From a virus, in IMG/VR virus record IMGVR_UViG_3300031711_000314, positions 1-36,398 of that record: a stretch of 36,398 bases of DNA; one strand, given 5' to 3'. Within the stretch, counting starts at the first letter, position 1. Every line of letters begins with the position of its first letter. Of this stretch, positions 2,626-36,398 are shown one piece after another. Below the pieces are notes generated by a model. The model did not search any database. It saw only the letters and a program-made list of their open reading frames with translations, and was not told where the DNA came from. A program made the translations under genes and the position numbers.

Positions 2626-3181
2626 GGGCCGCCTCCTTCGCCGCTTTGGCCGCTGCTCGCCGTTTGGTCATGTAGGCCTTCATGTAGGTGCGCTGTTGCG
2701 CTTTGTACTCGGGCGTCTTCTTGTGCCACTTCGACCAGAGGGCACGGTAGCGGCGCATCACGAGCGCGATTTCGCCGTCGACGCCGTCGAAATGGCGTTT
2801 GCCGTTCTTGTCGGCGGGGCCGTAAAAGGTGTCCCTGAAAGCTGTGCTCTGGTTCTTCCACGCGTCGAGGCTTAGGGGCTCCGGAACTGGTTTGCCTTTC
2901 GGCCCACGGCGCCAGCCGGAGCGGTTCCTAGGCGCCACGTACAAGAGCCGGAGGCCCTCGTAGGCCGCTTGGGTCCTGTCCCACTGGGGGAAGCGTGTAG
3001 CGCCGTCCTGGACGGCCTCTACGACCTTCCCGGAGCGGATCGCACGCTCGAAGTCTCCGAGCGCTTGGTTGAAGCGTGTGAAAGCCGCCTTGCGACGTTC
3101 AACGAGCCCGGTCCGGTCGACCATGGCGCGATCCATCGGCTCGCGACGCTTGCCCTTGTCGAGCGCTTTGAAGTCGATCAC
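2609..3181 (-). CDS. Basic hypothetical protein (190 aa)
   Basis: Middle gene of the minus-strand operon. It starts at a GTG that overlaps the stop codon of the RHH gene (GTGA), a typical coupled junction, and its own 3' end overlaps the zinc-binding gene by 17 bases. The protein is strongly basic. Its C-terminus (about 150-185) is a Lys/Arg/Ala-rich helix containing YMKAYMTKRRAAAKAAKEAA, the kind of tail seen on phage DNA-binding proteins. No catalytic motif is recognised. Position behind an RHH protein suggests an early DNA-associated function; this is inference from context. Confidence 0.65.
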   Translation of the reverse strand: MIDFKALDKGKRREPMDRAMVDRTGLVERRKAAFTRFNQALGDFERAIRSGKVVEAVQDGATRFPQWDRTQAAYEGLRLLYVAPRNRSGWRRGPKGKPVPEPLSLDAWKNQSTAFRDTFYGPADKNGKRHFDGVDGEIALVMRRYRALWSKWHKKTPEYKAQQRTYMKAYMTKRRAAAKAAKEAAHVQPV

Positions 3182-3393
3182 AGCGTCACCTCGTCCAAGA
3201 GGTCGTAGACGACGTTCTCGTCGATCTCGGCGTCGTGTTCCTCTCGGCGTTCCAAGAGCTGGCTTAGTCCGATCTCCAGACCCTCCCTGAGGAGCTTCGA
3301 CTTAGTCGCGAATCGGTGACGTTGAGTCAGTCGATCCAACGCCTCTTTGGACTTCTCGCTGATCGGAACGGCAATCCTTGGTTCTTTCGTCAT
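3178..3393 (-). CDS. Ribbon-helix-helix DNA-binding protein (CopG/Arc-type)
   Basis: Small 71-aa protein with the layout of an RHH repressor: a short N-terminal beta strand (RIAVPIS), a helix (EKSKEALDRLTQRH) and a second helix beginning TKSKLLREGLEIGL. It has an acidic C-terminal tail. RHH proteins dimerise and read DNA through the strand pair, usually repressing their own promoter. The ATG at 3393 has a good AGGAG ribosome-binding site, and the 35 bases upstream hold three GTGATC/GATCAC half-sites that overlap that ribosome-binding site, which fits autoregulation. It heads the operon 3393 to 1894. The assignment rests on pattern and size; antitoxin versus phage regulator cannot be decided, since no recognisable toxin follows. 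Confidence 0.75.
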   Translation of the reverse strand: MTKEPRIAVPISEKSKEALDRLTQRHRFATKSKLLREGLEIGLSQLLERREEHDAEIDENVVYDLLDEVTL

Positions 3394-3394
3394 C

Positions 3395-3429
3395 GTGATC
3401 TCCTGCCGATCACGTGCGAATAAGTGATC
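3395..3429. promoter_or_regulatory. Putative RHH operator: three GTGATC half-sites
   Basis: GTGATC at 3395-3400, GATCAC at 3408-3413 and GTGATC at 3424-3429 form two overlapping inverted repeats with spacers of 7 and 10 bases. They lie immediately upstream of the RHH start codon and cover its ribosome-binding site. Alternating half-sites are the kind of array that RHH dimers bind cooperatively. Binding by this protein is inferred from position. Confidence 0.5.
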
Positions 3430-3539
3430 TACCGGGCCGGATTCAAGAACGGTGGGATGATGTAGGTTGATGTCCTACCCGTCTTTGTTAAGATCCTTGA
3501 TCAACAACACCAAGAGGGCCGGAGGCCGGTGTCCGGAAA

Positions 3540-3660
3540 GCAACTGAGAAAAACTAGATAGTGTGTGTATTGCCCTAACAAGGAGAGACAATATTCAAAA
3601 ACACCGAGAAACAGAGGCTTGTTAGGGCAATACACCCAAAGGGCGGTTTTTCTCAGTTGC
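3540..3660. repeat. 121-bp nested perfect palindrome with symmetric internal loop
   Basis: The outer arms (3540-3554 and 3646-3660) are perfect reverse complements over 15 bases (GCAACTGAGAAAAAC). The inner arms (3565-3582 and 3618-3635) are perfect over 18 bases (GTGTATTGCCCTAACAAG). Outer and inner arms are separated by exactly 10 unpaired bases on each side, and the apical loop is 35 bases (3583-3617). Either strand could fold into a long hairpin with a symmetric 10 x 10 internal loop. It occupies the gene-free stretch 3394-3821. No T-run follows in the way of a simple terminator. The function is unknown. Confidence 0.85.
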
Positions 3661-3744
3661 CGTCCCGGAACCCGGAAGGGCGGAAAGACGTGGAAGCAAG
3701 GAACAGAAGGAACAAGGGAAGCAGAGCAAGAAAGACCTCTCGGA

Positions 3745-3774
3745 TAAAAAAGAAGAGCTAGCGAAGCTAGCTCT
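3745..3774 (-). terminator. Rho-independent terminator of the minus-strand gene 4337-3822
   Basis: A perfect 9-bp stem AGAGCTAGC/GCTAGCTCT (3754-3762 and 3766-3774) encloses a 3-base loop. Read on the minus strand, the stem is followed by TC and a run of six T residues, a textbook intrinsic terminator. It lies 48 bases past the stop codon of the gene that ends at 3822. Confidence 0.88.
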
Positions 3775-3821
3775 GGGATTAGGCCCCCCGCCGGTCAGAG
3801 CCAGCGGCGAAGGCCGCATGC

Positions 3822-4337
3822 CTACTGACCGCCCTCGACCGCCAACGGAGCGTCGTAAGCGGCTTGGTGATGGGAGGCGACCTCGTAGCGCTTCGAACCG
3901 ACCTCGATGATGTAGCCCTGGTGGTGATGGTTCCCCATGAGCTGCTTCAACATGTCCCGAGCAGCCTTCTCGGAAGGGTGATTCGTCGGGGCTTGGGATT
4001 CGATGAGGCCCATGTCGACGTAAGCCTCGTAGCTCCCGTCCCGGAGCTGACGGATGAACGGCCGCATCACGAGCAACGGGGCGTCTTCTCGGTAGCCGTC
4101 GGGGTGACGCTCGAAGAGAGCCCGGCAAAGCTCTGAGGCGACCGTAGCGACGGCGTTGGTGCCGTACACGCCGTCGACCTCGGCCTTGGTCTCGAGCGCC
4201 ACTTCGATGCTCACCGTACAGATGGGCCGTGGTGGTTGGGTTCGTGAGAGCGCCGTGTACCTCACGGTTTGGTTCGTCCCCGGCTTCGGCGTCTCGGCCG
4301 TGGTTTCGATGTGCCAGTCGATCGGTTGCTTCACCAT
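3822..4337 (-). CDS. Hypothetical protein (171 aa)
   Basis: I do not recognise a family. The protein is mixed alpha/beta without signal peptide or membrane segment. Features include a beta-rich N-terminal half (QTVRYTALSRTQ, ICTVSIEVALETK) and a His-rich stretch GNHHHQGYIIEVGSKRYEV near the C-terminus. The frame opens at 4406, but the ATG at 4337 is chosen because GGAGGTGGGG sits immediately upstream. It is a single-gene unit with its own strong terminator and diverges from the serine recombinase. Its upstream region holds AATCGG/CCGATT inverted repeats. It could be a regulator or single-strand DNA-associated protein, but the sequence does not show that. Confidence 0.7.
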   Translation of the reverse strand: MVKQPIDWHIETTAETPKPGTNQTVRYTALSRTQPPRPICTVSIEVALETKAEVDGVYGTNAVATVASELCRALFERHPDGYREDAPLLVMRPFIRQLRDGSYEAYVDMGLIESQAPTNHPSEKAARDMLKQLMGNHHHQGYIIEVGSKRYEVASHHQAAYDAPLAVEGGQ

Positions 4338-4464
4338 CCCCACCTCCGAACACATCGCGAAGCTCGCCTCAAGGGCTTCAGCTAACGCCGCGAAACTACC
4401 GAGCACCCGGTGACAGCAACCTGAACGGGGTGGCTCGCCGTCGATCGGTGGCAGCCGCCGCGGA

Positions 4465-4562: not shown

Positions 4563-4592
4563 ATGTACACACACCACCTGGTAAGTGTACAT
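4563..4592. promoter_or_regulatory. Inverted repeat overlapping the serine-recombinase start
   Basis: ATGTACAC (4563-4570) and GTGTACAT (4585-4592) are perfect 8-base inverted repeats with a 14-base spacer, and the right arm contains the first two bases of the recombinase ATG. It could be an operator, a resolvase binding subsite or a translational hairpin. Resolvases often bind their own promoter region, which makes self-binding attractive but unproven. Confidence 0.45.
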
Positions 4593-5280
4593 GGCATCAC
4601 GACGACGGCTGACGAATCCGAACCTTGCAGTGGGCTACCTTCGGGTCTCGACCGACGAGCAGCGGAACGGCATCGAGGCTCAACGAGGACAAATCGAGCG
4701 ATGGGCGAGCACGGCCGGCGTCACCATCGTCGCGTGGCACACGGACGAGGGCATCTCGGGCGGAGCCGCACTCGACAAGCGTCCGGCCCTCATGGCGGCT
4801 CTGGATAGCGTCCGAGCGGCGAAGGCTGGCCTTCTAGTCGTCGCAAAGCGTGACCGGCTCGCAAGGGAGACGCTCTTCGCTGGCATGATCGAACGCCTCG
4901 CCCAGAAGCACGGCTCTCGGATCGTCTCGGCCGACGGCACCGCAACTGACGACACGCCCGAAGCAGCCATGCTCCGCGGCGTTCAAGACGTGTTTGCTCA
5001 GTACGAACGGGCGCTCATTCGTTCGCGGGTCAAAGCCGCTCTGAGCGTCAAGAAGAGCAAGGGCGAGCGTGTCGGCAGCGTCCCGTACGGCTCTCGGCTC
5101 TCCGCTGACGGAACGCACCTCGAACCCGAGCCCGAGGAGCAAGCCGTGCTGGCGCGTATCCGCTCGCTCCGAGAGGCAGGGCGGCCCCTCCGAGCCATTG
5201 TCACGGACCTCGAGACGTCCGGCGCCCGTGCTCGCGGTGCACGCTGGCACCTCACGACCGTGGCCCGCCTCGTCGGCTAG
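4591..5280 (+). CDS. Serine recombinase (resolvase/invertase family)
   Basis: Small serine recombinase of about 229 aa. The catalytic serine is in YLRVSTDEQ (Ser20 from this start), with the family's arginine cluster in AKRDRLARE and a long helix after FAQYERALIRSRVKAAL. The C-terminal part (about 150-229) has the GxxPYG motif and a short helical DNA-binding segment instead of the large zinc/coiled-coil domains of large serine integrases, so resolvase or invertase activity is more likely than integration. An in-frame GTG at 4585 would add two residues. The start overlaps an inverted repeat, and a GC hairpin with a T-run follows the stop. A second recombinase beside a tyrosine integrase is notable. 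Confidence 0.9.
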   Translation: MASRRRLTNPNLAVGYLRVSTDEQRNGIEAQRGQIERWASTAGVTIVAWHTDEGISGGAALDKRPALMAALDSVRAAKAGLLVVAKRDRLARETLFAGMIERLAQKHGSRIVSADGTATDDTPEAAMLRGVQDVFAQYERALIRSRVKAALSVKKSKGERVGSVPYGSRLSADGTHLEPEPEEQAVLARIRSLREAGRPLRAIVTDLETSGARARGARWHLTTVARLVG

Positions 5281-6157: not shown

Positions 6158-6397
6158 ATGCGAACCCGGGATCTCTACTTCGCCGCCTTCCTCGTTGCTT
6201 CCGAGCACGTGGTGTCGAGGACCGAGCGCCCGGCGGAGAACCCTAGGGTTCTCGTGTGGGTCTTCGACGTCCCTAGTGAAGCGTATCAAGCGTTCCGAGC
6301 CGGCTACCTCACGGGTCAAGCGCTCGTGAACGCCCGTGCTTACGCTGATGCCCTTCGAAACCTCAAGAACATGATCCATAGGGACGACGAAGGCTGA
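6158..6397 (+). CDS. DUF5659-like small protein (79 aa)
   Basis: The opening RTRDLYFAAFLVAS, the central aromatic strand VLVWVFDVPS and the C-terminal helix ARAYADALRNLKNMI follow the pattern I associate with DUF5659 proteins, which occur in phages and mobile elements and have no assigned function. The frame opens earlier at 6071, but the ATG at 6158 follows the previous stop by 7 bases and gives the family-like N-terminus. Its TGA overlaps the ATG of the next gene by one base. The family match is from memory of the pattern and is moderately sure. Confidence 0.65.
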   Translation: MRTRDLYFAAFLVASEHVVSRTERPAENPRVLVWVFDVPSEAYQAFRAGYLTGQALVNARAYADALRNLKNMIHRDDEG

Positions 6398-7035
6398 TGC
6401 CCCTTTCGGCGGCTCAGCTTCGAGCGCTCGAAACCGCGCTTCGACAAGAAGCAGAGGCGACGCTCAGGGCGAGGGGATGGGACGGTCACCTTGCGCTCGT
6501 CAGGAACCCCTACGGTGATGAGCTAGCCCTGAGGCTCGAAGGGACGGCACGAATCGGCCACCAGAGTTTCATCAACGAGCGAGCGCTCGAGGTAGCGGCG
6601 GAAGGCTCGTTCGCGCATGACGTCGTGCGAGGTCAGCTTCTACATGACCTTCGGCGATTCCCGGCCCTCCCTGGCTCCGCTGCTGAGCCAGAAGCCAGAG
6701 AAGCGGAACGACGGCGCGTGCTCGAGGAGCTTGGAGTCACGGTGGTTCGCAACGTCGACGAGCTGCCTCCCGAGGTTCGCCCTCGACCACGCCCTATCGA
6801 GCAGGCTTCGCCAGCGGGACGTGCGCTTTCGGCCGCCGCTCTGGGTGCGATCGCAGGCGCAACGTACGGTCTCGATTTCCCCGACGTCGAGTACACGTTC
6901 AGCAACAATGTCTTCCTCGCCACAGGCGCAAACCTAGTGAACGCCGCTTCAACGCCGCAACATGAAGAGCCGGCGCTTCCCGGGCCCGAACCGAAGAGCC
7001 GCTACGAGCTGCTCATGGGCGAGGACGTGATCTAG
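6397..7035 (+). CDS. Hypothetical protein (212 aa)
   Basis: Coupled to the preceding gene through TGATG. The first ~120 residues are charged and predicted helical (SAAQLRALETALRQEAEATL, then an Arg/Glu-rich stretch around 95-115). A proline-rich linker (RPRPRP) follows at about 128-133. A small-residue segment (AALGAIAGATYGLDFP, about 147-162) may be weakly hydrophobic but is too short and polar for a confident membrane helix. No recognised domain. It is the last gene of this + block and converges on the minus-strand pair ending at 7041. Confidence 0.6.
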   Translation: MPLSAAQLRALETALRQEAEATLRARGWDGHLALVRNPYGDELALRLEGTARIGHQSFINERALEVAAEGSFAHDVVRGQLLHDLRRFPALPGSAAEPEAREAERRRVLEELGVTVVRNVDELPPEVRPRPRPIEQASPAGRALSAAALGAIAGATYGLDFPDVEYTFSNNVFLATGANLVNAASTPQHEEPALPGPEPKSRYELLMGEDVI

Positions 7036-8238: not shown

Positions 8239-8775
8239 TCAAATCCCAGGTTCGCAGGCCACGCCGACCTGGTGGCAAGCCGTCGCGCAGTGGCCGATCG
8301 CCGGGCAGGTCCCGGTAACGCAGGCGTTGATGCAGTCGTAGGGCATCCCGTGCGAGTCCGTCAGGCACTGCTGCTCGAAGTGGCAGCCGGTGTCGGAGTC
8401 GTAGTGCTCGGGAGCACCGGCGGCTCCCGGTGTTCCCGCAGCGGCGCTCGGCATGCCACCCATGCCGGCAAGGGAGTGCTCAGTAAGCACACCCCCAGCT
8501 CCGCCCATGCCGGCGACGGGCTCGCCGCCCATCCCGGCAACGGGTGACGTCTCGAGCTGCCCACCGGAACCGGCGCTCGTGACGTCACTGCCGCCGGTCC
8601 CGGCGGTCAGGACTTCACCGGCGGTTCCACCAGAGCCGGCGCTACTCTCGGGAGTTGCGGTCTCGGCCGGCGGCGGTGTCAACGAGCCAGGGTCGAGGTC
8701 CTGATCGTTCGATCCAGAGCACCCGGTCACGAGCACGAACGCGAACACCGTCCCTAGAAGATTGGCGGCCCTCAT
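8239..8775 (-). CDS. Prophage lipoprotein with Gly-rich linker and Cys-rich C-terminus (178 aa)
   Basis: A classic lipoprotein signal peptide opens the protein: MRAANLLGTVFAFVLVTGC, with lipobox VTGC and the lipidated cysteine at residue 19. The ATG at 8775 is chosen over an in-frame GTG at 8817 because it places the signal peptide at the N-terminus. A long Gly/Ala/Thr/Met-rich linker follows, with repeated AGMGG and GTGGS units (about 45-120). The C-terminal ~45 residues carry seven or eight cysteines (GCHFEQQC, DCINACVTGTC, CATACHQ), probably disulfide-bonded outside the inner membrane. Such linkers are common in Myxococcota surface lipoproteins. As a lone minus-strand gene before the late operon it looks like a lysogenic-conversion or exclusion 'moron'. 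Confidence 0.8.
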   Translation of the reverse strand: MRAANLLGTVFAFVLVTGCSGSNDQDLDPGSLTPPPAETATPESSAGSGGTAGEVLTAGTGGSDVTSAGSGGQLETSPVAGMGGEPVAGMGGAGGVLTEHSLAGMGGMPSAAAGTPGAAGAPEHYDSDTGCHFEQQCLTDSHGMPYDCINACVTGTCPAIGHCATACHQVGVACEPGI

Positions 8776-8804
8776 AGGACTACTGGATAGCTCGTCGTAG
8801 CCCC

Positions 8805-8848
8805 GTGTCCATCCCACATGGACACACAGGCCAATAATGGACTTATTG
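8805..8848. promoter_or_regulatory. Two tandem palindromes between lipoprotein and terminase genes
   Basis: GTGTCCAT (8805-8812) and ATGGACAC (8818-8825) are perfect 8-base arms around a 5-base spacer. CAATAA (8832-8837) and TTATTG (8843-8848) are perfect 6-base arms around a 5-base spacer. They lie in the divergent intergenic region that must hold promoters for the minus-strand lipoprotein and, most likely, the + strand late operon, so operator function is likely. No protein is assigned. Confidence 0.5.
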
Positions 8849-31198: not shown

Positions 31199-31614
31199 GC
31201 AGGATGAAGCTCGATACGCTTCGATCGGGGCCGACCGTTGTCACGTCAACAGGCACCCAAACCGCTGCCTCGTGGTCGCTTGCGACGCTGACGAGCGGTA
31301 TGTCGACGGGGGACGTTTGCTACGTGGACGTCGTCGCCGGCTGCTTTAGCGTGAGCGCGGCGAACTACTCGGCTCTTGTCGCTCTGACGGTTGCCGTGGG
31401 GCTGAATGCTGGCCCGACGTACGCGCTTGGGGCCGTTAGCTACAGCCAGCCGAACGCCGGCTCGGGGAACACGCCTGGCGACGTCACGGGTGGAGGCATG
31501 TGGGACTCGATGACGCTCGATCAGTCGAGCGGGACGCTACGTCTCCGGGTCACGTTCTCGGTTCATACCCAGGGTTTCACCTGCTACGCGCTCGCCAACA
31601 CGTTGGGGCCGTGA
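31195..31614 (+). CDS. Tail/virion-associated hypothetical protein (139 aa)
   Basis: Starts at an ATG overlapping the fibre stop (ATGA) and ends overlapping the glycosyltransferase start. It is beta-rich, Ser/Thr/Ala/Gly-rich (TLRSGPTVVTSTGTQTAASW, GDVCYVDVVAGCFSVSAANY) with a Trp-Asp motif GGGMWDSMTL near residue 100. The composition is that of a small virion domain, perhaps a fibre tip or chaperone. No family recognised. Confidence 0.6.
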   Translation: MSRMKLDTLRSGPTVVTSTGTQTAASWSLATLTSGMSTGDVCYVDVVAGCFSVSAANYSALVALTVAVGLNAGPTYALGAVSYSQPNAGSGNTPGDVTGGGMWDSMTLDQSSGTLRLRVTFSVHTQGFTCYALANTLGP

Positions 31615-32351
31615 TGCTGATCGTGGTGCCCTTCAATCGCCCGGAGCGCCTCGAGCACGTCCTCAAGATATGGCGTCACCAGTACACGAAGGCGCCGCTG
31701 GTTCTCGTCGCCAACGAACGAGGGGCGTGGGCTTCTCGTGCCGAGGAAACCGGAGCCGTCGTCCTAGTTGGAACCCCATCGATAGGTGGAGCAAAAAACC
31801 GCGGACTGGAACACGCCCGAAGCGTCGGAGCTGACTGGGTGCTCTTCCTCGACGACGACAACTACTGGGGACCGATGCTCGTCCGTGAGTTCGTGCGTGA
31901 GGCTACGGACGACGTCGAGGTGATGAGCCAGGGGATCGGCTTCGTCCGCTTCGACGATGGCCTGTACCTGTTTTCTACACCCCTAGGTTTCTGCCCCGGC
32001 CATTGCACCGCGGTTCGGACATCTCTCGGCGTCTACTTCCCCGAGCTGAACTTAGGGGAGGACGTCGCTTGGACGAAGAGCCTCCCGCCAAACACTAGGG
32101 TTCGGCACCTCGGCCCGTGGCACGCGATCTACAACCGAACCGGGATCGACCACGCCTACAAGGTCGGCAAGGTCGAGTTCTTGGCTTCGTTCGGGGACGC
32201 CCTGGAGATCGGCGACGTTGCCGACGACTTCGTCGACCTCCCTAGGGACGTGTCGAAGCTGAACCTCCGACGGCACACGGCGAACGACGACGAGATCTTC
32301 GCCTCGCTGGCACGGCATTCACGGTTCCGAGGGGGCTCATGCTCGGGCTGA
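31614..32351 (+). CDS. GT-A fold glycosyltransferase (family 2-like), 245 aa
   Basis: Predicted sugar transferase. The N-terminal strand MLIVVPFNRPERLEHVLKIW is a nucleotide-sugar-binding opening. It is followed by GGAKNRGLEHARSVGADWVL and the metal-binding acidic motif FLDDDNYW (about residues 79-86), as in GT2-type enzymes. A further acidic segment LNLGEDVAWTKS around 145 may supply the catalytic base, as the ED motif does in this class. The ATG overlaps the previous stop, so it belongs to the late operon. It may glycosylate a virion protein such as the fibre or capsid, or modify host surface sugars; which one is not shown. The following LamG-like gene overlaps it by 13 bases. Confidence 0.8.
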   Translation: MLIVVPFNRPERLEHVLKIWRHQYTKAPLVLVANERGAWASRAEETGAVVLVGTPSIGGAKNRGLEHARSVGADWVLFLDDDNYWGPMLVREFVREATDDVEVMSQGIGFVRFDDGLYLFSTPLGFCPGHCTAVRTSLGVYFPELNLGEDVAWTKSLPPNTRVRHLGPWHAIYNRTGIDHAYKVGKVEFLASFGDALEIGDVADDFVDLPRDVSKLNLRRHTANDDEIFASLARHSRFRGGSCSG

Positions 32352-33809: not shown

Positions 33810-33827
33810 ACCTAGAAAGGGATCTCC
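33759..33827. repeat. Direct repeat copy A flanking the DUF4145 cassette
   Basis: This stretch, from the end of the last late gene through the end of the opposing gene, is closely matched at 34498-34574. Shared blocks include GCGATCGTCACCG, CTAGGGTGGTGGTG and a CTAGAA(A/C)GGGA block that spans the stop codon of the minus-strand gene in each copy. The match is diverged, with a few small gaps. Confidence 0.75.
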
Positions 33828-34444
33828 TTTTCGGCCTCTTTCCTCTTCTCCTCGTTCTCGCGTCGCTCTTTGAATCGCTTAAAAGCCGCCTCGAACATGT
33901 AGAGGTACTGGATGATCGCTTTCGTGAACTCGAGAGCATCGTCCGCGTCCTGCCTCGAGACAGTTACAGTGATGTCGTGCGCCGCGTCGTTGCCCAAGGC
34001 TCGGAGTACATGGTCAGCCCATTCGTAGAGGCGCGACTCAATGATCCCTCGCTCCTTGAGATCGATGAGCTTGTCCTTTAGGTTGCGCCCTTTCGCTTCG
34101 AACCCGAAGCAGATCCCCTCGAGAGTTCGCCGACACATGATGGCAGCGGCGGTGTAGGCGCCGGACTGGAAGCAGGCGTGCGCCTCCCAATAACTGGCAC
34201 AGATGTTCGCCGGAACGCTGCCGTCTAGTTGAGACCTATCGCTGGGGAAGATTACGACTGGCTGGCCGTAGCCCTCGAACCCGGTTTCCCTCACGGCCAC
34301 AAAGGGCTTCTGACAATGCGGGCACGCGTAGAGCAAATATTGGTAGTCGGGCTCATAGTCTTCGCTCGTCACCTCGTACGTGAAGCGGTGCACCGCGGCG
34401 ACGGGCTTTTCACACTTGGTGCATGTGGCTACCAACCCTAACAT
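33812..34444 (-). CDS. DUF4145 protein with N-terminal zinc ribbon (210 aa)
   Basis: Two CxxC pairs, CTKC (about residues 8-11) and CPHC (about 41-44), form a zinc ribbon. They are followed by the helical DUF4145 region: YWEAHACFQSGAYTAAAIMC, RRTLEGICFGFEAKG, LKDKLIDLKERGIIE, then the conserved RALGNDAAHD-like motif, and DADDALEFTKAIIQYLYMFE. DUF4145 is often found alone or fused to nucleases in defence and mobile loci; its activity is not established. A charged Lys/Glu tail ends KEIPF. The gene is inverted relative to the late operon and flanked by a duplicated sequence, so it looks like acquired cargo. It appears slightly lower in GC than its neighbours. Confidence 0.85.
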   Translation of the reverse strand: MLGLVATCTKCEKPVAAVHRFTYEVTSEDYEPDYQYLLYACPHCQKPFVAVRETGFEGYGQPVVIFPSDRSQLDGSVPANICASYWEAHACFQSGAYTAAAIMCRRTLEGICFGFEAKGRNLKDKLIDLKERGIIESRLYEWADHVLRALGNDAAHDITVTVSRQDADDALEFTKAIIQYLYMFEAAFKRFKERRENEEKRKEAEKEIPF

Positions 34445-34557: not shown

Positions 34558-34574
34558 GCTAGAACGGGAGATCG
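34498..34574. repeat. Direct repeat copy B flanking the DUF4145 cassette
   Basis: Diverged copy of 33759-33827. It spans the remnant's end and runs into the last codons of the DarT-like gene on the minus strand, so that both minus-strand genes end in a Pro-Phe-stop encoded within the repeat. Confidence 0.75.
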
Positions 34575-35515
34575 CTTAGCGTGACGTGATCCTGGAACGC
34601 TAGGTGTCCTTCGATCCACACTGTAGCGATCCCCGTCGGGAGTGCGTCCTTGAGATTGATCCCCCACCTCTTCGACATCTGATGCTGGTCCTTCGTCGCC
34701 GTCCAAACGTTCTTGGCATCCTCGTACTTGAACGCGACCTTCATGGGGAGGCTGTAACGGGTGGGTGCGTGAAAGCCAAACCGAATGAGGTTCTCCTCCG
34801 GCGTTACCTCTTCAACGAACGCCCACTCGTTCTCGAAGTATTGGCTGGCCTCAACGTCGACCAAGCTTTCGTAGCGGGACCTAAGTTGCTTACCCAGTAG
34901 ATGCAGGAGCGTCCGGCGTTCGGGGTGCGAGCGGCAGACGATCCTTTTGATGCCTCTCGTGGATAGGCGAACCGGAACCAGCACTTCGGCGCAACGGTGA
35001 AAGGTCAGACTCGACGCATGGGGATGGCCCCACGTCGAGCCCCGGTGGTACACGAGCGGGAAGTCGATCCGGTCGAAGTCGGCTTCGGTAGGGCCGTGGC
35101 TAACGCCCCCCGCCCCCATGTTACCCGTTGAGAACTGGGTGCTGTCTTGACCGAGCAGGTCGACGAAGTCGAACAGCATGAAGACCGGGACCGGGCAGTG
35201 GGCCTCTAGATCGATGCCGGCCGCGGGCCGAATGCCCTCGTTACGGTATTGGGTCGGGGTGAGAGGGCGGAAATAGAGGCGGACGAAGTCCTTACGCTCG
35301 GTCGTCGTGTTAGCGATGACGCTCGGGGCCGCGCAATTCTTGTAGGCGATGTTCTGTCTCGCCATTTCCTCGCGGCTGAGGAGTTCGCCTCGCTTCAGGA
35401 TCTCGACGACGTTCTCGATGTCGTCGAATCGATACACGTGGCTGGCGAGCTGCTTGGGCAGCACGTTGTTCCACGTCGCTACGTGCTTCCGAAGTTTATT
35501 GATCCACGGCTTCAA
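34559..35515 (-). CDS. darT: DarT-like DNA ADP-ribosyltransferase toxin (DUF4433), 318 aa
   Basis: DarT enzymes transfer ADP-ribose from NAD+ to bases in single-stranded DNA, blocking replication; several protect cells from phage. The pattern fits: HVYRFDDIENVVEILKRGEL (residues 26-45), then FVRLYFRPLTPTQYRN (77-92), and FHRCAEVLVPVRLS (172-185) whose Glu177 lies where the catalytic glutamate is expected. The N-terminal His/Thr motif usual in the family is altered (VYRF). The protein is ~100 residues longer than the short DarTs I know, with a beta-rich C-terminal part (GFHAPTRYSLPMKVAFKYED). TTG 35515 is the apparent start, overlapping the antitoxin gene by 20 bases. The family call is good; activity is inferred. 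Confidence 0.8.
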   Translation of the reverse strand: MKPWINKLRKHVATWNNVLPKQLASHVYRFDDIENVVEILKRGELLSREEMARQNIAYKNCAAPSVIANTTTERKDFVRLYFRPLTPTQYRNEGIRPAAGIDLEAHCPVPVFMLFDFVDLLGQDSTQFSTGNMGAGGVSHGPTEADFDRIDFPLVYHRGSTWGHPHASSLTFHRCAEVLVPVRLSTRGIKRIVCRSHPERRTLLHLLGKQLRSRYESLVDVEASQYFENEWAFVEEVTPEENLIRFGFHAPTRYSLPMKVAFKYEDAKNVWTATKDQHQMSKRWGINLKDALPTGIATVWIEGHLAFQDHVTLSDLPF

Positions 35516-36398
35516 GGTGAGCGGGCATCTGCTGCGTCTGCTCCGGGTCGCGCTCGGCGGCAGGGGAGAAACGGATCCCCCTGACGTTTAGCTTCTTGTT
35601 CCTCGGGTCGGCAAACGGAGCAGTCTCGATATAGCCTAGCTCACACAGCAGGGGGACGACCTTCTTAGCGTTCCGGGCAAGATCGGGAGGGAACTCGTCG
35701 ACCGTCAACGCACCCCTAAGTTTCAGGTCCAGCCAGAGAGAACGGAAATCCTCACCCGGGATCGCTAGATCGTCGGAGTAAACGAGGACGGGGAGAGGCG
35801 GCGGTCCGTCGTCGCAAACCGTCGTTGATTCGGCTCGTGGCGCGGGTTCGACCCGTGCCGCGTGCTCCCTCAAATCGTCGAAGAACTCGTTGAAGCTGAT
35901 CCTGATGCGCGGTTGGAGGAGATCCTTCTCCTTATGTTCCGGCACAAAATCAGCCGGATTCTTCACGCGGTGCACGTAGACCGGGATGGGGAGGTTCTCG
36001 AGGTACTTCTCCATCATCGGGCGCACCACCTTCTCCCAGTCGAGGCCGCCGTTCCCGGTCCCGAGCTGGGGGAACGAGATGCTCGTGATGCCGTACTCGG
36101 CGTAGCTCGCGACGAACTTCTTGAGCCCGGCTTCGACGTACTCGGGCTTCGAAGGGGACCGCCAGTGGCGCTTGGTCGGGAAGTTCAGGACCCACTTGTT
36201 AGGGGTCCGGTAGAGGTAGAGCTTCCCGACGGTGAGCGTCTTGTCCTTGCAGAACTTGGCGTACCGCTCGAACATCTCGGGGTAGCGCCGCTTGTATTCG
36301 AGCGCGATGCCCTTCCCCATGACGCCGACCGTGTTCACGGTGTTCACCAGCGTCTGAGCCGGTGACTCGAACAGGTTCATTGAGAGGTAATGCAGCAT
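35496..36398 (-). CDS. darG: DarG-like macrodomain antitoxin (300 aa)
   Basis: Macrodomain proteins of the DarG type remove ADP-ribose from DNA and also hold DarT. The ligand-binding motif NTVNTVGVMGKGIALEYK (19-36), with Lys29 matching the lysine needed for de-ADP-ribosylation in this class, and the second loop SFPQLGTGNGGLDW (about 108-121) are intact. The C-terminal half (about 150-300) is a separate region: an acidic/proline linker, then a winged-helix-like segment (FRSLWLDLKLRGALTVDEFP, LCELGYIETAPF), perhaps the toxin-binding or autoregulatory domain. It lies upstream of the toxin gene and overlaps it. The window ends on its ATG, so the promoter is not seen; an in-frame ATG six codons in is an alternative start. 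Confidence 0.85.
   Translation of the reverse strand: MLHYLSMNLFESPAQTLVNTVNTVGVMGKGIALEYKRRYPEMFERYAKFCKDKTLTVGKLYLYRTPNKWVLNFPTKRHWRSPSKPEYVEAGLKKFVASYAEYGITSISFPQLGTGNGGLDWEKVVRPMMEKYLENLPIPVYVHRVKNPADFVPEHKEKDLLQPRIRISFNEFFDDLREHAARVEPAPRAESTTVCDDGPPPLPVLVYSDDLAIPGEDFRSLWLDLKLRGALTVDEFPPDLARNAKKVVPLLCELGYIETAPFADPRNKKLNVRGIRFSPAAERDPEQTQQMPAHLEAVDQ

Follow-up and report, generated by a model that had tools for sequence, protein, structure and literature searches.

A 121-bp nested perfect palindrome at 3540–3660, in the early region of what would seem to be a temperate phage, is real, rare and far above chance. It is tentatively read, at somewhat less than an even chance, as an orphan structured noncoding RNA of the phage encoded on the plus strand, its transcription, direction and function being predictions. 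This reading is favoured ahead of a folded-DNA replication element, a template-switch product, a mobile palindrome and a pair of regulator sites.

The window, that is the whole stretch of DNA analysed here, is a 36,398-base IMG/VR virus record that has a tyrosine integrase gene at its start and a DarTG toxin-antitoxin pair at its end, and that encodes a terminase and the SU10-like portal and adaptor proteins in between. Its first and last bases coincide exactly with start codons, matching what would be expected of a provirus record trimmed at gene boundaries, and we infer that the 36.4-kb window is the provirus of a temperate phage. The host is likely to be one of the Myxococcota, judging from sequence, because the serine recombinase encoded at 4585–5280 is closest to genes in Deltaproteobacteria/Myxococcota assemblies, mostly at 50–56% identity. 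No replication protein was recognised in the window, with neither a helicase or primase family nor a match to the RepA-like proteins of related phages. Elsewhere in the window, the genes for the DarT toxin and the macro-domain antitoxin DarG (34559–36398) adjoin a DUF4145 gene (33812–34444), and a glycosyltransferase family 2-like protein is encoded in the late region beyond the tail genes (31500–32351). A predicted lipoprotein of the early region (8239–8817, minus strand) is rich in GSGG/GMGG repeats, a style common in Myxococcota.

As the first-pass annotation had stated, the palindrome lies in a gene-free stretch of more than 400 bases, the only gap of this size in the early region. The same annotation had placed it between divergent control regions, which is incorrect, as the flanking genes at 3178–3393 and 3822–4406 are both on the minus strand. 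Two open reading frames, at 3565–3747 on the plus strand and 3622–4353 on the minus strand, overlap the gap and are without a coding signature as judged by GC content by codon position. At the far left of the gap an inverted repeat, GATCAC-N10-GTGATC (3408–3429), is found upstream of the ribosome-binding site of a gene for a 71-residue ribbon-helix-helix-like protein (3178–3393, minus strand) and is likely to be the autoregulatory operator of this gene. The features of the gap are as follows:

3394–3821, no strand assigned: gene-free stretch containing the palindrome, 428 bp, defined from the list of open reading frames and GC by codon position
3467–3494, plus strand: sigma70-like promoter site, TTGATG-16-TAAGAT, with a predicted start near 3501, suggestive only
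3532–3536, plus strand: left arm, TCCGG, of a weak outermost stem seen in the RNA and DNA folds
3540–3554, plus strand: outer left arm, 15 bp perfect, pairing with 3646–3660
3555–3564, plus strand: left side of the internal loop, 10 nt
3565–3582, plus strand: inner left arm, 18 bp perfect, pairing with 3618–3635
3583–3617, plus strand: apical loop, 35 nt, with 18 A, 8 G, 6 C and 3 T
3618–3635, plus strand: inner right arm, 18 bp perfect
3636–3645, plus strand: right side of the internal loop, 10 nt
3646–3660, plus strand: outer right arm, 15 bp perfect
3665–3669, plus strand: right arm, CCGGA, of the weak outermost stem seen in the RNA and DNA folds
3666–3765, plus strand: tract rich in purines (78% A+G), more skewed than any other 100 bp in the window, and a candidate single-stranded RNA tail
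3754–3774, minus strand: 9-bp hairpin with a T-rich tail, terminator-like, for the minus-strand gene 3822–4406

Both nested arm pairs agree in every detail with the first description, being 15 and 18 bp long without a mismatch about a common centre at 3600. Within the 10 × 10 internal loop two bases on each side are able to pair (3562–3563 with 3637–3638), and folding as either DNA or RNA adds the weak 5-bp TCCGG/CCGGA foot that closes the structure. The longest arm that ten Markov shuffles of window length produced within 200 bp was 13 bp, as against the 15 and 18 observed. Across 1.42 Mb of sequence, taken from related phages and loci bearing recombinase genes as well as from the window, this was the only centre at which perfect runs of at least 10 bp added up to 30 bp or more, the runner-up reaching 27 bp and lying in a G-rich repeat. 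The fold of the palindrome gave z-scores of −8.9 for DNA and −5.8 to −6.8 for plus-strand RNA; any palindrome would give an RNA fold score as low.

It is the composition of the unpaired parts that points to an RNA. The apical loop has 18 A against 3 T in its 35 nt (P about 7e-5 given the local composition), and the 23 stretches of 35 bases in the window with at least 18 A all start either at 3575–3584, in the apical loop, or at 3694–3723, in the purine-rich tail; no stretch of this length in the window has as many T. No strand-asymmetric signal other than the loop bias and the purine tract is seen in the gap, and both of these point to the plus strand. In structured RNAs the unpaired parts are typically A-rich and the stems neutral in composition. 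The combination seen here, of unpaired parts rich in A with stems of more neutral composition, therefore favours a plus-strand RNA, a hairpin acting only as DNA giving no reason for the bias, though the stems are not perfectly neutral, 8 of the 15 bases of the outer left arm being A. The RNA fold, with a z-score reaching −6.8, and the lack of a coding signature in the gap are also in keeping with this reading. Selection on the structure is thus plausible, with composition as its support. The first-pass annotation had taken the perfect arms themselves to imply such selection; that step is not safe, because template-switch repair can perfect an imperfect palindrome without selection.

Transcription of the proposed RNA would start near 3501, from the promoter-like site at 3467–3494, the 15-bp stem beginning 46 bases beyond the end of this site (3494). 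The transcript would fold as one long nested hairpin, with the 5-bp foot, the 15-bp stem, the 10 × 10 loop, the 18-bp stem and the 35-nt A-rich loop. Beyond it would come a tail of ~80 nt, rich in A and G and without structure, and perhaps a further short hairpin (3754–3774). The stem may give stability or an entry site for an enzyme of the RNase III type, and the A-rich loop and tail may be contact surfaces for a protein or a target RNA, such that the RNA would act as a regulator of the early region.

Several observations stand against the RNA reading. While the promoter-like site is suitably placed and oriented and ranks second among 569 sites in the window, its score was reached in 85 of 300 shuffles of the AT-richer gap and is not significant. 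No plus-strand terminator was found in the gap; the element at 3754–3774 is a possible 3′ hairpin of the plus-strand RNA, with no T run on that strand. Since the gene at 3822–4406 has this hairpin of its own (3774–3754 in the direction of the gene), the palindrome is not its terminator. A set of 33 pairs with neither a mismatch nor a G-U is also unusually clean for an RNA stem that has evolved for long. Finally, neither an Rfam family at threshold nor any relative was found.

The searches for relatives were broad. DNA similarity searches of phage and plasmid records gave nothing relevant to the palindrome, and no second copy is present in the window. Patterns for the inner and outer arms with variable gaps had no match in 2.9 million IMG/VR viral contigs, nor did the inner-arm pattern in 84,980 GTDB species genomes, and a covariance model of the palindrome gave no convincing copy in 189 Myxococcota genomes or 27 related phages. 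In its one weak match (E 0.17), in the related phage L125, much of the inner stem is mispaired and open reading frames are overlapped. A short DNA match to 3656–3684 that recurs in Myxococcota genomes corresponds to the region upstream of guaB in two close relatives, and the other short Myxococcota DNA matches examined look like chance, being mostly inside coding sequence. Searching Rfam with the window at the gathering threshold gave no matches, and a relaxed search of the gap gave chance hairpin matches only. Literature searches revealed no described counterpart. When flanking proteins were used as bait in IMG/VR (the 71- and 194-residue proteins, recombinase, portal and integrase) no useful relatives were recovered. 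With the terminase as bait, 28 related viral contigs were recovered; terminase identity was 53% and portal identity 60% in the closest of these, and neither the palindrome nor the flanking early genes are found in any of the 28. Since the flanking early proteins are themselves orphans, the lack of a homologue does not show a lack of function.

Amongst known RNAs, the closest likeness is to the orphan structured RNAs of phages and mobile elements, large hairpins of the Rfam type, which share the position in a noncoding gap, a stable nested hairpin, A-rich unpaired segments and a strand bias; the palindrome differs from these in having no family match or relatives and a perfect stem with no G-U pair. 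6S RNA has a similar layout, with a closing stem, a roughly 10 × 10 central bubble and an upper stem, but there is no Rfam match, and the loop sequence and perfect stems are unlike those of 6S. The 12 GGA motifs at 3501–3780, equal to the maximum for the window, recall the CsrA-sequestering RNAs CsrB and RsmZ. A CsrA sponge was nevertheless rejected, since 12 such motifs were reached in 198 of 1000 shuffles and CsrA was found in only 10 of the 189 Myxococcota genomes. A retron msr-msd RNA is likewise not supported, as the proteins of the window that were scanned included no reverse transcriptase. The RNA reading thus fits no tested family.

Two recombination sites were considered and either rejected or found to be unsupported. 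An integron attC site would have outer RYYYAAC/GTTRRRY core sites, L boxes and unpaired extrahelical bases; here the inner arm CCCTAAC/GTTAGGG misfits the core at the first and last letters, the stem is perfect and no L box was seen by eye. For a res or att site of the neighbouring serine recombinase, the top related loci (50–56% identity) had no perfect arms of at least 14 within 200 bp, in a scan that covered arms of this kind only, shorter or imperfect sites being beyond its reach.

The main rival to the RNA reading, though in itself unlikely, is that the palindrome is a DNA element active when melted or extruded, either a replication origin or a single-strand initiation site, with an AT-rich palindrome that would unwind beside the polypurine tract, possibly with the help of host DnaA. 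The lowest-GC 200 bp of the window (3441–3640, 45.5% as compared with 53.5% for the next) covers much of the palindrome, and the lack of a recognisable replication protein would accord with an element of this kind. Three of the window's ten DnaA-box-like sites with one mismatch lie here, at 3415, 3545 and 3647, but the latter two, inside the outer arms, are one inexact site counted twice by symmetry. Origins in this phage group may be repeat-rich noncoding blocks. In the relatives L100 and L111 the strongest block of inverted and direct repeats, at 6306–6450 and 3464–3616 respectively, consists of short units (TCCGGTG; GGCGAAAGTCG) directly behind an AAA_25/RepA-like gene, and these blocks are candidate replication origins. 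Iteron or inverted-repeat origins behind RepA-like helicase genes, as proposed for these two phages, resemble the present gap in being repeat-rich noncoding blocks of the early region. They differ from it in that the window has no RepA-like gene and the palindrome is a single nested hairpin rather than short repeated units: the L100 and L111 RepA-like proteins had no significant match in the window, and only one direct-repeat pair was found in the 901-bp region around the palindrome. An origin at this position would lack an adjoining initiator gene and iterons of the kind seen in the relatives, and would leave the strand bias of the apical loop unexplained. In two further relatives, L113 (2810–2933) and L125 (5764–5877), iteron-like TGTCACCA repeats are found in the 3′ part of an open frame bearing a Walker A motif.

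It is less probable again that the palindrome has no selected function and arose in a weakly constrained gap, either as an inverted duplication or as an imperfect palindrome perfected by template-switch repair. Quasipalindrome correction yields exactly perfect arms with no G-T pair or mismatch, as observed here, and one inverted duplication would by itself account for the centre common to both arm pairs; the palindrome has not been kept in any relative. Such an origin would not, however, lead one to expect the palindrome to coincide with the segments of the phage that are lowest in GC and most skewed to purines, or to have an A-rich loop, and long palindromes are prone to deletion unless kept.

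Still more doubtful is the insertion into the phage of a small non-autonomous mobile palindromic element, similar to a MITE. The palindrome resembles the ERIC and Correia elements as a nested intergenic palindrome of ~120 bp and its GC content is below that of the phage. A CCGGAA direct repeat on both sides (3533–3538 and 3665–3670) could be a target-site duplication, but the arm ends lie off it by 1 base on the left and 4 on the right, so that there is no clean duplication at the arm ends, and CCGG is self-complementary and may be part of the stem. Unlike ERIC and Correia elements, moreover, it is present in a single copy, with no other in the window, in IMG/VR or GTDB by arm pattern, or in the 189 Myxococcota genomes by covariance model. 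Least probable is that the arms, which hold inverted copies of a −35-like TTGTTA, are paired protein-binding sites in duplex DNA, such as operators of the 71-residue protein: a promoter-like TTGTTA-17-TCTAGT on the minus strand of the left half (3581–3553, seventh of the 569 sites) could drive the operon that starts at 3393 on the same strand, but the operator-like repeat at 3408–3429 already lies nearer the start of this operon, perfect arms of 15 and 18 bp are longer than operators usually need and the 35- and 10-bp spacings are not explained.

Returning to the orphan plus-strand RNA, a bolder version of this reading can be framed, which we consider improbable. The palindrome would then represent a new class of phage RNA, ~270 nt long and on the plus strand, made up of a perfectly paired nested stem, a long apical loop rich in A and a tail rich in A and G. 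Such an RNA would control the early region or prime replication in an RNA-primed, host-dependent manner, the temperate phage itself having no replication gene that could be recognised.

If the palindrome is transcribed, it would be a phage RNA without a described family, from a lineage of probable Myxococcota phages that is all but uncharacterised. Were it instead an origin, it would show the mode of replication of a tailed phage that has no recognisable initiator, and if neither, it would be a case of a palindrome, all but perfect, that has been either kept or produced by repair.
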